A stretch of 5,462 nucleotides of DNA, taken from assembly GCA_029563035.1 (NCBI GenBank), contig JAKQTP010000173.1, positions 1 to 5,462 on the forward strand. The letters are read 5' to 3'. The position numbers and the translations under genes are program-made. Origin of the DNA: an archaeon. Lineage in GTDB: Archaea > Iainarchaeota > Iainarchaeia > CSSED10-239. The notes below the pieces were generated by a model, which was not told where the DNA came from, ran no database searches, and saw only the letters and a program-made list of their open reading frames with translations. Positions 218 to 5,462 of the stretch are shown here, piece by piece (within the stretch, counting starts at the first letter, position 1; every line of letters begins with the position of its first letter).

Positions 218-1357
218 ATGAAAAATGAAATAAAAGATTTTTTAAATTTTGTAGCTAGCGATGAAGAGATGCCAATGCTGTTAAGCGAAGTTGAAGACAC
301 GGTAAATTATGCCGATTGCAATTGTTATGCCCTTAATTATTTACTTACCAGAAAAATTTTTGCAGGATTTCCCTTAGGACGAATAATAACAATTGCTGGT
401 GATTCTGCCAGTGGAAAAACTGCGCTGGCATTACAATTTGCGACAATAAAAAATTTTGATTTAGTTTTTTACATTCAAACGAATGGAGAAGATGCCGAAA
501 AATCTTTTGTGAATAAGTTTAAAGGGATTGACCAAAATAAATTTGTCCGACAAACAATAAACAATTTTGAGCAATTAAACCAGCTAATGGAAAAAATATT
601 AATTTGGCTGGAACAAAAAAAGCAAAAAATTTTAATTATTGTTGACTCAGTTAGCGGATTGAGTGATATAAATATTAAAAACGATAATGCAGGCTTTGCT
701 GGTGGCAGAAGAGCTACATTGTTTAAGAATTTGTTAAGGAATTATGCAAACAAATTGAAAAATTGTGATAGCAATTTAATTTTAATTTCACAATATTATT
801 TAAATCCTACAGCTTCCTTTGGACAAGATCCGAAGGTTCTTGGTGGCGGGCTTGCAGTAAAACAATATTCACATTTAATTTTGGAATTAACAGCATTAAA
901 AAGCGACAGTGAAATTTTGAAAAAAAATATTATTGGAGCTTTAAATCAAGCAATTAACATAAAAGTTTCAAAATCTCGCTTTGGAACACAATATTCGGAA
1001 TTGAAAATCATTTTTGATTTTGAAGCAACAATTTCTCAAACAGCGGGATTGTTTGAACTTTGTAGCGATTTAACTTTAATTGAAAAAAAAGGGAAAATGT
1101 ATTATTTTCCCAATTTAATTACAAAAAAGGAAATAGAAAATTTTGATGTAGCTACTTATCCACTTTTTGGTGAAATAGACCTAGAAAGAGATAAAGGATT
1201 TTATCGTAAAGATTTTGAAAAAATAATAAATGAAAATCCTGCAATTTTAGAAAGAATTTTAAAAATAATAGATTTTAATTTTGGTGCGGAGAAAATTTTT
1301 TCCGAAGATTTAATTGAAAAAATTATGCAAAGGAAAAAAAGTATGGAAAAGGATTAA
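218..1357 (+). CDS. RecA/UvsX-like recombinase
   Basis: A 379-residue member of the RecA family, the ATP-dependent strand-exchange proteins that coat single-stranded DNA in homologous recombination and repair. Phages often carry such a protein (T4 UvsX is of similar size). Walker A GDSASGKT lies at residues 61-68 and the Walker B strand ILIIVDS at about 138-144, with Asp143. LILISQ (about 187-192) sits where RecA has its glutamine switch, and GGGLAVKQYSHLILEL (about 209-224) matches the RecA GG-N-A-x-K-F-Y region. A C-terminal part (about 285-379) follows the core, starting with GLFELCSDLTLIEKKG, which resembles the start of the RecA C-terminal domain. I chose ATG 218 over the in-frame TTG at 203 because AAGGCGGG lies just upstream of 218 and the TTG would read through that site. 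The core is divergent from bacterial RecA, so UvsX-type versus RecA-type is not settled. Confidence 0.88.
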   Translation: MKNEIKDFLNFVASDEEMPMLLSEVEDTVNYADCNCYALNYLLTRKIFAGFPLGRIITIAGDSASGKTALALQFATIKNFDLVFYIQTNGEDAEKSFVNKFKGIDQNKFVRQTINNFEQLNQLMEKILIWLEQKKQKILIIVDSVSGLSDINIKNDNAGFAGGRRATLFKNLLRNYANKLKNCDSNLILISQYYLNPTASFGQDPKVLGGGLAVKQYSHLILELTALKSDSEILKKNIIGALNQAINIKVSKSRFGTQYSELKIIFDFEATISQTAGLFELCSDLTLIEKKGKMYYFPNLITKKEIENFDVATYPLFGEIDLERDKGFYRKDFEKIINENPAILERILKIIDFNFGAEKIFSEDLIEKIMQRKKSMEKD

Positions 1358-2952: not shown

Positions 2953-3138
2953 ATGAAAGAAGTTAAAGAAATTATAAGAAATTTCTTGATAGCAGGTGGC
3001 TATGACGGGCTTTGCAGTGGAAATTGCCATTGTTCTGTTGAAGAACTTATTCCGTGCAAAGTTGATTTTTCTTGCTGTAGACCTACTCATTTTTTAAAAA
3101 GTGATACAGAAGATTTTGAAGAAAATACAAATAAATAA
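2953..3138 (+). CDS. Small Cys-rich phage-type protein (paralog 1)
   Basis: A 61-residue protein with a helix-like N-terminus (VKEIIRNFLIAGGYDGL, residues 4-20) followed by cysteines at 21, 25, 27, 35, 41 and 42. The pattern GYDGL, then C-x-C, then EELIPC, then C-x-P is shared with the next gene. From memory it recurs in short phage proteins of unknown function; the clustered cysteines suggest zinc binding. AAAAGGA at 2941-2947 is a good ribosome site, 5 nt from the ATG. Compared with the reconstructed paralog (78 residues), it ends early: after residue 45 it has an acidic tail and lacks the C-terminal cysteine cluster. It may be a shorter variant or a decaying copy. Confidence 0.75.
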   Translation: MKEVKEIIRNFLIAGGYDGLCSGNCHCSVEELIPCKVDFSCCRPTHFLKSDTEDFEENTNK

Positions 3139-3210
3139 TTTTAAAGAGGCAAAAATGAAAACTGTTAAAGAAATTGTAAGAAATTTCTTGATAGCAGGTG
3201 GCTATGACGG
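2975..3210 (+). repeat. 34-nt direct repeat within the paralogous pair
   Basis: Positions 2975-3008 and 3177-3210 are identical over 34 nt and encode the end of the N-terminal helix and the GGYDG motif in both small proteins. Divergence is clear on both sides. Such sharply bounded identity fits tandem duplication followed by divergence, or local gene conversion. Recombination between the copies would delete about 202 bp and fuse the two genes. Confidence 0.7.
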
Positions 3211-3310
3211 TCTTTATTGTGAGGAATGTGGATGTTCTTTGGAAGAACTTATTCCTTGCGGATCTGATTTTTCCCAATGTAAACCAGGATATTTTGTAAA
3301 ATGTCAACTA

Positions 3311-3331
3311 CCCAACGACTAAAGTCGTGGG
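3311..3331 (+). repeat. Left-end hairpin of the IS element
   Basis: CCCA pairs with TGGG and CGAC with GTCG around a TAAA loop, with A3315 left as a single bulged base. This is the usual form of the imperfect palindromes bound by Y1 transposases of the IS200/IS605 group. The right-end hairpin has the same layout. The TAA that ends the broken phage gene product falls in the loop. Confidence 0.8.
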
Positions 3332-3525
3332 CTTGATAGCCCTATGTTGACCAGGCTAAGGTTTGCAACAGAACCTACGTTATCTATGTTATGACACTTT
3401 AGGATACTCCTTCAGTCCTAAACACTGTCGTACAGCATTAAACAGGCGTAGTGGGTTAAGCCAGTGTGTTGTACGTGTAAGCATAGATAACATTGCCGAG
3501 AAGGATATTACCTGCGTAAGCAGAG

Positions 3526-3540
3526 AAAGGAGAAATTCCT
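3526..3540 (+). promoter_or_regulatory. iscB ribosome site, possibly self-masked
   Basis: AAAGGAG (3526-3532) lies 8 nt ahead of the iscB ATG. AGGA (3528-3531) can pair with TCCT (3537-3540) across a 5-nt loop, weakly hiding the site. Since the site adjoins the omega RNA 3' hairpin, folding of the guide RNA, or IscB binding to it, could limit iscB translation. This is inference from position and pairing. Confidence 0.4.
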
Positions 3541-4821
3541 ATGGTATTTGTTTTAGATGCAAATAAAAAACCATTATCACCTTGTCATGAAGCAGTTGCA
3601 AGAAAATTGCTTAAACAAGGTAAGGCTGCAATATTTAGAAGATACCCATTTACAATAATCCTTAAAAAAGCAGTAGATGACACTGATAATAAACAAGAAT
3701 ATAGATTAAAAATTGACTATGGTAGTAAACATACAGGATTAGCCATATTACAAAATAATAATGTAATATGGTTAGGACAAATAGACCATAGAACAGATAT
3801 TAAAAAGAAACTTGATGAAAGACGTTCTTATAGACGAAGAAGAAGAAATAAGAATTTGCGTTATAGACAACCAAAATTTTTAAATAGACGAAGAAAAGGA
3901 GAATGGATACCACCTTCACTTGAAAGTAGAGTTAATAATATAAAAACATGGGTTAATAGGTTACAAAAATTAATTCCATTAACTCACATATCTTATGAAA
4001 ATGTTAAGTTTGATACTCAATTAATGCAAAATCCTGAAATAAGTGACATTGAGTATCAACAAGGTACACTTCAAGGGTATGAAATTAGAGAATATTTACT
4101 TGAAAAGTTTGGTAGAAAATGTTGCTATTGTGGAAAAGAAAATATTCCTTTAGAAATAGAACATATAATACCAAAATCAAGAGGTGGTACAGACAGGATT
4201 GATAATCTTTGTTTAGCTTGCCATGAGTGTAACCAGAAGAAAGGTAATATGACAGCAGAAGAATTTGGTTATCCTGATATACAAAAACAAGTTAAACAAA
4301 CATTGAAGGATACTTCTGTAGTTAATTCTACAAGATGGAAAGTTTATGATGTACTTTGTAATAGTGGTTTAGAAGTTGAATGTGGTACAGGTGCTCTAAC
4401 AAAAATGAATAGAATCAAATTAGGATTGTCAAAAGAACATTACTTTGATGCTTGTTGTGTAGGTCAAAGCACACCAGATAAATTATATTTTAAGACAAAA
4501 GATGTTTTGTATATAAAAGCAAAAGGTAGAGGGAGTCATTGTAGAACAAATTTAGATAAATACGGCTTTCCGAGAGGATATTTAGCAAGACAAAAATATT
4601 TCTTTGGTTTTCAAACAGGAGATATGGTTAAAGCTGAAATACCAAAAGGAAAATATAAAGGTATATGGTATGGAGAAGTTGCTTGTAGAAAATCAGGTAG
4701 TTTTGATATTAAAGACAAGGAAGGTCAAAGAGTTGTACAAGGTGTAAATCATAAATATTTTTCAGTTGTACAACACTTTGATGGGTATAGTTATAGAAAG
4801 GAGGTAGCAAATCTTACGTAG
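3541..4821 (+). CDS. iscB: IscB RNA-guided nuclease (RuvC and HNH domains)
   Basis: A 426-residue, apparently intact IscB, the transposon-encoded RNA-guided DNA endonuclease family from which Cas9 descends. Domains in order: N-terminal PLMP-type domain (1-45, with VFVLDANKKPLSPC and RRYPFTI); RuvC-I with LKIDYGSKHTG (Asp59); Arg-rich bridge helix (94-119); RuvC-II with ISYENVKFD (Glu153); HNH (about 192-236) with zinc pairs C194-C197 and C227-C230, EIEHIIPKSRGG containing catalytic His208, and Asn222; RuvC-III with EHYFDA (His300, Asp303); and a C-terminal target-motif-interacting region (about 329-420). All catalytic residues are present, so both strands could be cut. The start is set by AAAGGAG and by the conserved N-terminus. 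The omega RNA lies directly upstream. It is expected to bind that RNA and cut DNA matching the guide beside a short flanking motif, whose sequence cannot be predicted here. Confidence 0.95.
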   Translation: MVFVLDANKKPLSPCHEAVARKLLKQGKAAIFRRYPFTIILKKAVDDTDNKQEYRLKIDYGSKHTGLAILQNNNVIWLGQIDHRTDIKKKLDERRSYRRRRRNKNLRYRQPKFLNRRRKGEWIPPSLESRVNNIKTWVNRLQKLIPLTHISYENVKFDTQLMQNPEISDIEYQQGTLQGYEIREYLLEKFGRKCCYCGKENIPLEIEHIIPKSRGGTDRIDNLCLACHECNQKKGNMTAEEFGYPDIQKQVKQTLKDTSVVNSTRWKVYDVLCNSGLEVECGTGALTKMNRIKLGLSKEHYFDACCVGQSTPDKLYFKTKDVLYIKAKGRGSHCRTNLDKYGFPRGYLARQKYFFGFQTGDMVKAEIPKGKYKGIWYGEVACRKSGSFDIKDKEGQRVVQGVNHKYFSVVQHFDGYSYRKEVANLT

Positions 4822-4839
4822 CGTCTTTGTAAGAGACGC
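4821..4839 (+). repeat. Hairpin after iscB stop codon
   Basis: GCGTCT (4821-4826) pairs with AGACGC (4834-4839) around a 7-nt loop, starting on the last base of the iscB stop codon. No U run follows, so it is a poor terminator. It may be part of a larger right-end fold closed by TCTTACG (4812-4818) and CGTAAGA (4876-4882). Confidence 0.5.
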
Positions 4840-4846
4840 AATTCCT

Positions 4847-4867
4847 CCACGTGGCTAAAGCCAGTGG
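4847..4867 (+). repeat. Right-end hairpin of the IS element
   Basis: CCAC pairs with GTGG and TGGC with GCCA around a TAAA loop, with G4851 as the single bulged base. Layout, loop and bulge position match the left-end hairpin exactly although the stem sequence differs, as expected if one transposase binds both ends. About 13 nt separate it from the inferred right end. Confidence 0.8.
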
Positions 4868-4985
4868 CTTCCTTGCGTAAGAATTTGTGATATAAAAAAT
4901 TGCGAAAATGAGTATTGCATAGGAGAAAGTGCTTTAAAGAAATGTACAGAACATTCAAATACTGATAATTAAAAAAGGGGTTAAA

Positions 4986-5462
4986 ATGAATTTAATCTTA
5001 GAGAAAACAAATAAAATTGCAATTTTAAATATAGAAAATAAACAAAATTTGTTTTTTTTATACGAAGATATAAAAAATCCAAATTTTGCTTTGCTCAATT
5101 TATTTAATTATTGCTATTTTCTTTATGATTTAAAAAACCAAATACTTTCGCAAGCTTTTTATCAAATTTTTACAGAAGGGTTATTAAACAACGAAAGCAA
5201 ATATTTTGTGGGTTTTCAAAAGGATGATAAAGAGTGTTTTGCGAATTTGTACACTTTTGAAAATGGAAAAATAGAAACATTATTGAAAAAAAAGTATGTT
5301 TTTGTTTATCCTTTTGGTTTAATAACAGGAAAAAATTCAAACCTTTTTGCTATTGAAAAAATAAGTGATACTTATAAAAAAATAGTAGCCATAGACTTTA
5401 AAAATTTTGATGAAAACAATTATGTGGAAATTATTCCTCAAAAATACGGAAAAATTGATGAA
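4986..5462 (+). CDS. Hypothetical protein, 3' end beyond the window
   Basis: An open frame of 159 codons from ATG 4986 to the window edge with no stop, so the gene is incomplete here. AAAAGGGG at 4973-4980 is a strong ribosome site 5 nt ahead of the ATG, and the start lies 13 nt after the stop of the interrupted Cys-rich gene, as in an operon. The protein begins MNLILEKTNKIAILNIENK and is rich in Phe, Tyr, Lys and Asn, with no clear membrane segment or signal peptide. Short hydrophobic strands (KYVFVYPFGLI near residues 101-111, IVAIDF near 133-138) suggest a soluble alpha/beta fold. I recognise no family. Its low GC matches the phage genes rather than the insertion. It may be cut off from its normal transcript by the element upstream. 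Confidence 0.68.
   Translation, partial: MNLILEKTNKIAILNIENKQNLFFLYEDIKNPNFALLNLFNYCYFLYDLKNQILSQAFYQIFTEGLLNNESKYFVGFQKDDKECFANLYTFENGKIETLLKKKYVFVYPFGLITGKNSNLFAIEKISDTYKKIVAIDFKNFDENNYVEIIPQKYGKIDE

Follow-up and report, generated by a model that had tools for sequence, protein, structure and literature searches.

An IscB/omega-RNA element inserted before GTGA within a small, probably phage-borne gene, and its uninterrupted landing sites

Genes and features of the locus

The window, i.e. the whole stretch of 5,462 nucleotides that was analysed, has a GC content of 27.4% and carries a UvsX/RecA-like recombinase gene, further short genes and a tandem pair of small ORFs, the second of which is interrupted by a complete IscB/omega-RNA element of 1,584 bp with structured ends (Table 1).

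Table 1. Coordinates of the features in the window, with the evidence on which each was placed
Feature	Position	Strand	Basis
UvsX/RecA-like recombinase	221..1357	+	phrog_97 UvsX-like, RecA TIGR02012, RecA fold
Protein of unlabelled function, 183 aa	1383..1934	+	no Pfam, PHROG or NCBIfam match at E 0.1
Protein, 175 aa	1931..2458	+	no family match; one 96% metagenome relative
Protein, 127 aa	2483..2866	+	no match above curated cut-off
Intact tandem paralogue, 61 aa	2953..3138	+	keeps GTGA at 3101-3104
Interrupted small cysteine-rich ORF, 5' part	3155..3302	+	paralogy and comparison with P0060
Predicted guide, 16 nt of left flank read into omega-RNA	3287..3302	+	scaffold start at 3303 plus 5' spacer of HEARO RNAs
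IscB/omega-RNA element	3303..4886	+	left limit: start of similarity in other loci; right limit: P0060
Omega-RNA (HEARO) scaffold	3303..3511	+	Rfam RF02033, full model 1-211
iscB, predicted RNA-guided endonuclease, 426 aa	3541..4821	+	NF040563, PF14239 RRXRR, HNH, PDB IscB matches
Right-end hairpin	4847..4867	+	covariation among relatives, 9 distinct sequences
GTGA, target-derived, predicted target-adjacent motif of the empty allele	4887..4890	+	P0060 frame; empty sites in L041/L042 and Anoxybacillus; 24/25 right junctions
Interrupted ORF, 3' part	4887..4972	+	CDIKNCENEYC... in frame with the 5' part once the element is omitted
Protein running off the window	4986..5462	+	no relative in IMG/VR or phage records

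The iscB ORF is free of frameshifts, and its product scored 448 bits against the NCBIfam model guided_IscB (NF040563; curated equivalog cut-off 175), with additional matches to Pfam RRXRR (PF14239), to HNH and to solved IscB chains in the PDB. The split RuvC domain and the HNH domain are equipped as in IscB proteins: Asp59, Glu153, His208 and Asp303 align with Asp, Glu, His and Asp of the solved chains u660/u652/u133650, which we take to be the catalytic residues, and both zinc-binding cysteine pairs (C194/C197 and C227/C230) are present. Directly upstream, the HEARO RNA (RF02033) was found at full length with 153.3 bits (gathering score 83, E 2e-33). The original prediction, made from the letters alone, of an intact IscB preceded by a structured RNA, with these same residues and cysteine pairs at these positions, was therefore borne out.

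The limits of the element were set by comparison with copies at other loci. DNA similarity begins at 3303 in L001, L002, L003, L005, L006, L020 and L021, and at 3290-3301, i.e. at most 13 bp away, in L019, L023 and L029. As TGT is common to both junctions, the two limits may shift jointly by -1 to +2 bp. The element had first been placed at 3300-4880; the element itself stood, its exact limits were replaced by 3303-4886. Hairpins had also been predicted to bound it. At the left end, the DNA fold is far more stable than chance (z = -5.4, 0/200 shuffles equally stable), which upholds that hairpin; at the right end (4838-4886) the fold is moderate by energy (z = -1.9, 11/200 shuffles equally stable), yet it covaries. 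Among 9 distinct sequences, 94.2% of 69 cells of the right-end hairpin are paired, with a covariation score of 0.278 against a shuffled mean of 0.129 (0/500 shuffles as high); neither the pairs with double changes (2; 397/500 shuffles) nor the further pair types (6; 197/500) exceeded the shuffles. By its covariation, this hairpin appears to be preserved through compensating changes.

Sharp ends common to copies at other sites, subterminal hairpins (at the right end by covariation) and insertion at a fixed short motif without a long target duplication (GTGA at 24 of 25 right junctions; TGT only) are all features of ISC-type (IS200/IS605-like) elements. As the scan of 8 window proteins gave no match to a Y1 TnpA transposase, which the autonomous form would carry, the element was filed as the non-autonomous form.

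The interrupted gene and its uninterrupted allele

The ORF starting at 3155 and the one just upstream of it are tandem paralogues; the former is broken off at 3302. Omission of 3303-4886 yielded the reading ...CKPGYFVKCDIKNCENEYCIGESALKKCTEHSN..., and the identical stretch occurs in P0060, an uninterrupted metagenome protein of 92 aa, whereas alternative right limits with the same start (4885, 4887-4892) gave stops or other residues. Since only the limit at 4886, or small slides of it, produces the P0060 reading, the comparison indicates that GTGA at 4887-4890 was part of the target and not of the element. A right end with GTGA inside the element (to 4889/4890) had been suggested by the invariance of GTGA at the right end of all 12 aligned copies; it was rejected because the 4886 limit yields CDIKNC of P0060 and because the empty sites themselves hold GTGA.

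P0060 differs from the window ORF in two residues near the start and has a tail that is 15 residues longer, so that it is best regarded as a related allele rather than the identical one; for the window, a protein sequence represents the empty allele. In those two residues P0060 begins like the upstream paralogue, and with its longer tail it looks as if the tandem genes recombine. The upstream paralogue itself was considered as a second target of IscB: it retains GTGA at the homologous position, though merely 10 of the 16 guide positions match, and it was set aside as such. It is possibly a diverged, cut-resistant site.

Further empty sites and the GTGA junction

Three pairs of filled and empty sites were available: the window and P0060; L009 with L041 and L042; and L019 with seven out of nine genomes searched from the same genus. 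L009, a virus contig of 59.8 kb, ends within a copy of IscB with 96.9% DNA identity to the window over 390 bp, and a portal gene (phrog_2739, E 3e-76) adjoins this copy. L041 and L042, two further virus contigs, carry this portal gene too (protein identity over the best segment 95% for L041 and 87% for L042) and lack the element there, and the similarity between L009 and L041 (92.8% over 5,385 bp) begins precisely at GTGA; since the left flank of L009 is missing, it offers no guide to compare with the element-free phage site. For Anoxybacillus, nine genomes were searched with the two flanks of L019 joined: seven contain them side by side, and the remaining two are L019's own, with the halves apart, and one without a match. 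All seven empty sites carry GTGA at the junction, with 5 extra bases shortly upstream in L053. A scan among relatives of the gene preceding the L002 insertion returned no closely related empty site.

Distinct right junctions followed by GTGA amounted to 11 plus 13 further, i.e. 24/24, or 24/25 when a right-end remnant on L006 is added, which abuts another copy and is followed by GTAG, the sole exception. L002 and L003 share one site, L023 and L076 one insertion, and each of these pairs entered the count once; the count leaves out the distant copies L008, L010 and L062-L064, whose right ends cannot be surely placed, as well as L007, L022, L024-L036 and the second copy on L001. The genome G003, with many copies, yielded 14 right junctions, all with GTGA. 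GTGA is the predicted target-adjacent motif (TAM), a reading drawn from the empty sites. Traces of repeated insertion at one place were seen in a doubled left end (L005:9745-9772) and in the L006 remnant (L006:6407-6459).

An ATG lies 4-16 bases past the start of GTGA at 17/24 junctions (13/17 bacterial; 4/7 viral, counting the window, which is without one), compared with 139/480 (29%) GTGA sites on both strands of Anoxybacillus loci and 86/342 (25%) in phage loci; seven of the ten Anoxybacillus control loci (L053-L059) are counterparts of one region, which makes them less independent than 480 sites suggest. Left junctions end in AG in 8 of 13 distinct cases, not counting the distant copies and L005, whose left end is partly doubled; among the control GTGA sites, AG precedes 27 of 480. 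The insertion context thus looks like an AGGTGA ribosome-binding core, to which the window copy, lying inside a gene, is an exception. In 10 of 12 loci examined, the nearest downstream ORF, called mechanically, is co-oriented with the element (exceptions L010 and L023). A literature search for an insertion motif of IscB elements found, judging by the titles listed, nothing relevant; Weinberg et al. (2009) reportedly noted ATGA/GTGA at HEARO insertions.

Relatives and spread of the element

Full-length copies share 74-93% protein identity with the window IscB in other virus contigs and 75-77% in bacteria. The IscB copies closest to it, in L001, L002/L003 and L004 from IMG/VR (87-93% protein identity) and in L009 (98% over 104 residues), share its right end and the GTGA junction, L001-L003 also its left end, which is missing from L004 and L009. 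They occupy sites other than that of the window, and copies differ in site and left flank, L002 and L003 representing one site. The DNA identity of relatives at other sites, 92-97%, points to recent movement. This identity, together with the checked residues, the full omega-RNA and both ends being intact, makes it very unlikely that the element is a dead relic, a reading that could otherwise appeal to the missing transposase in the window.

In a tree of 25 IscBs, the window groups with the virus contigs L001, L002 and L004 at a support of 92/93, just below the mark set by the tool, and the virus contigs L005 and L006 are placed within the Anoxybacillus copies (100/99), a pattern that favours recurrent exchange between phage and host. 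The Anoxybacillus pushchinoensis genome G003, from which L023 derives, gave 19 IscB matches, of which 16 lie at contig ends, as is expected of a repeated element; these matches and the 14 distinct right junctions suggest a very active multi-copy element. The TnpA family PF01797 (Y1) was found in 4/5 host genomes and in 2/9 virus records searched, the latter possibly being fragments.

Phage collections had been proposed as a place to look for close homologues. A tblastn search of 50,697 phage records with this IscB gave 60 matches, 12 of them across at least 80% of its length; in the lower half of the 40 that were listed, the match was mostly around the HNH part only. The nearest IscBs are those on virus contigs. 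A second, distant IscB was noted on the 185-kb virus contig L001 (L001:18270-19562), its nearest neighbour in the tree being that of L010. The HNH endonuclease of Nodularia phage vB_NspS-kac68v162, whose record MK605246.1 is a complete phage genome, is likewise an IscB and shares 47% identity with the window protein. Unlike the latter, it lies between two parts of the tnpB of an IS607-type element, an N-terminal part (OrfB_IS605) and a C-terminal part (Cas12f1-like TNB; L062:2807-5652), apparently one RNA-guided nuclease element inserted into another.

Genomic setting

The original prediction placed the element in a phage-like gene cluster beside a recA-like gene. That gene is present, and it prefers the phage family over housekeeping RecA: 115 bits for phrog_97 (UvsX-like) against 65 bits for RecA TIGR02012 (cut-off 325). 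Structure comparison gave a RecA fold, with bacterial RecA as the nearest solved structure and phage UvsX at rank 43; the fold as such does not separate a phage from a bacterial origin. On the 41-kb virus contig L039, a relative of the interrupted small ORF was found at 58% over 42 residues, and three phage records gave weak matches to this ORF (E 4e-4, 5e-4 and 0.4). The ORFs of the window are short and co-oriented, and no metabolic family was found among them. With the nearest IscBs on virus contigs, these features make the phage-like character likely, to which the short flanks add no hallmark match: the scan of 8 proteins from the 5.4-kb window gave none for terminase, portal or capsid.

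If the window belonged to a plasmid, or to a bacterial chromosome carrying a stray RecA paralogue, this missing hallmark would be explained, and several searches lean the same way. The recombinase, alone or as an alignment, had no relatives in IMG/VR, two neighbours had none either there or in the 50,697 phage records, the family occurs also on plasmids (93 records), and the recombinase cluster, present on contigs of up to 27 kb, has a GEM source, taken to mean genome bins; the ranking of bacterial RecA ahead of UvsX in the structure comparison agrees with this. The phrog_97 score, the grouping of IscB with three virus contigs despite support just below the mark, the phage relatives of the small ORF and the make-up of the ORFs argue against it. 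We regard a non-phage host as doubtful and a phage origin of the window as probable.

Elsewhere, the element lies near virion genes on three virus contigs: L002 has major-head, internal-virion and portal-family matches, L005 has portal and major-head matches, and L009 has the portal gene described above. L001 was dropped as a clear phage case, since, of ten of its proteins scanned against PHROGs, nine gave no match at E 1e-5 and the tenth a weak tail match; a terminase-like match over cut-off is found elsewhere on that record.

Proposed mechanism

In IscB systems the guide is 16 nt long. HEARO RNAs have been reprogrammed via their 5' spacer (PMC9755519), which makes the left flank the expected guide. 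For IsrB of Desulfovirgula, a relative, the preferred TAM is NTGA/TTGA (PMC9581776), and the predicted GTGA is compatible with this NTGA motif. The sequence after the guide match is GTCAAC in the filled allele, where it is the element's own left end, and GTGATA in the empty allele. As GTGA follows only in the empty allele and GTCA in the filled one, an active complex would spare the filled allele and cut the empty one.

We propose, with a probability of roughly 0.78 for the reading as a whole, that a non-autonomous ISC-type (IS200/IS605-like) element consisting of omega-RNA and IscB alone was inserted immediately upstream of GTGA, within one of the small genes of what is probably a phage, without target duplication beyond a possible TGT. 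Read-through from the co-oriented genes would bring the left flank into the omega-RNA as guide, and the IscB-omega-RNA complex would recognise the left-flank sequence plus GTGA, a combination present solely in element-free alleles, and cut there. Cutting would remove empty copies or permit repair from a filled copy, by which the element would be retained and could spread. A move to new sites would require a transposase in trans, which the Y1 transposases in 4/5 host genomes and 2/9 virus records make plausible. The anatomy and ends of the element, the empty and filled alleles, the target-derived GTGA and the co-orientation in most loci examined are observed; transcription, guide use, cutting, repair and mobilisation in trans are what we infer from them.

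The original prediction suggested that phages carry and spread these systems or use them in competition. Spread as a selfish element explains the observations; a role in phage-phage competition is conceivable. In the latter case the phage would retain the element as a weapon and profit from IscB cutting rival phages or host elements that bear the intact small gene. A phage-type setting, an uninterrupted allele in the wild that would bear the predicted target, and the three different virus contigs with the element near virion genes are in keeping with such a role. The copies compared, however, lie at differing sites with differing left flanks (L002 and L003 excepted), as for a transposon and not for a fixed weapon; virus-contig copies are interspersed with bacterial ones in the tree, and one host genome holds many copies. 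A weapon is, on balance, unlikely.

Within the preferred reading of a self-retaining mobile element, we suggest tentatively that phage-borne IscB could be a self-reprogramming homing endonuclease, in which each insertion before GTGA creates its own guide. Co-infecting element-free genomes would be cut and the element copied in by recombination, perhaps via the neighbouring UvsX-like enzyme; the choice of GTGA, a motif that often forms the core of a ribosome-binding site immediately ahead of a start codon, may also fix the orientation with the downstream gene so that the guide is transcribed. Homing of a phage-borne IscB in the manner of a classical homing endonuclease would be directly testable with a natural guide, target and motif.

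Comparison with known systems

IscB in a phage, put forward originally as a novelty, has precedents. PHROGs already holds a full-length IscB family, phrog_2214; more than 16% of HEARO/IscB (HEARO-effector) fragments have been reported as likely viral or prophage-derived (PMC9755519), and HEARO RNA is reported in isolated Staphylococcus phages (Silviavirus; PMC13346280). A phage HNH protein that resembles IscB in the HNH domain only (PMC12817073) and phage tnpB loci (PMC11437467) have no bearing on homing by IscB. Searching by titles and the beginnings of abstracts, with most subscription papers outside the search, returned no paper on homing by phage IscB.

The IscB/HEARO systems, IS200/IS605-associated OMEGA nucleases, share with the window element the protein architecture, the upstream HEARO RNA, the rarity of TnpA and a partly viral distribution (PMC9755519); the window adds this copy and the uninterrupted alleles, with no mechanistic difference found. 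Here, uninterrupted landing sites mark the ends of the element and its probable cutting target. Matched filled and empty alleles, including those of closely related virus contigs, fix the junction to about three bases.

In TnpB, of the same superfamily, the guide lies at the other end of the RNA than in IscB. Drive by TnpB on plasmids has been reported (PMC11870625) and follows the same logic as proposed here, in that the guide records the insertion site and element-free copies are cut. That drive belongs to the TnpB/Cas12 lineage and acts on plasmids, whereas the element of the window encodes IscB and resides in a probable phage.
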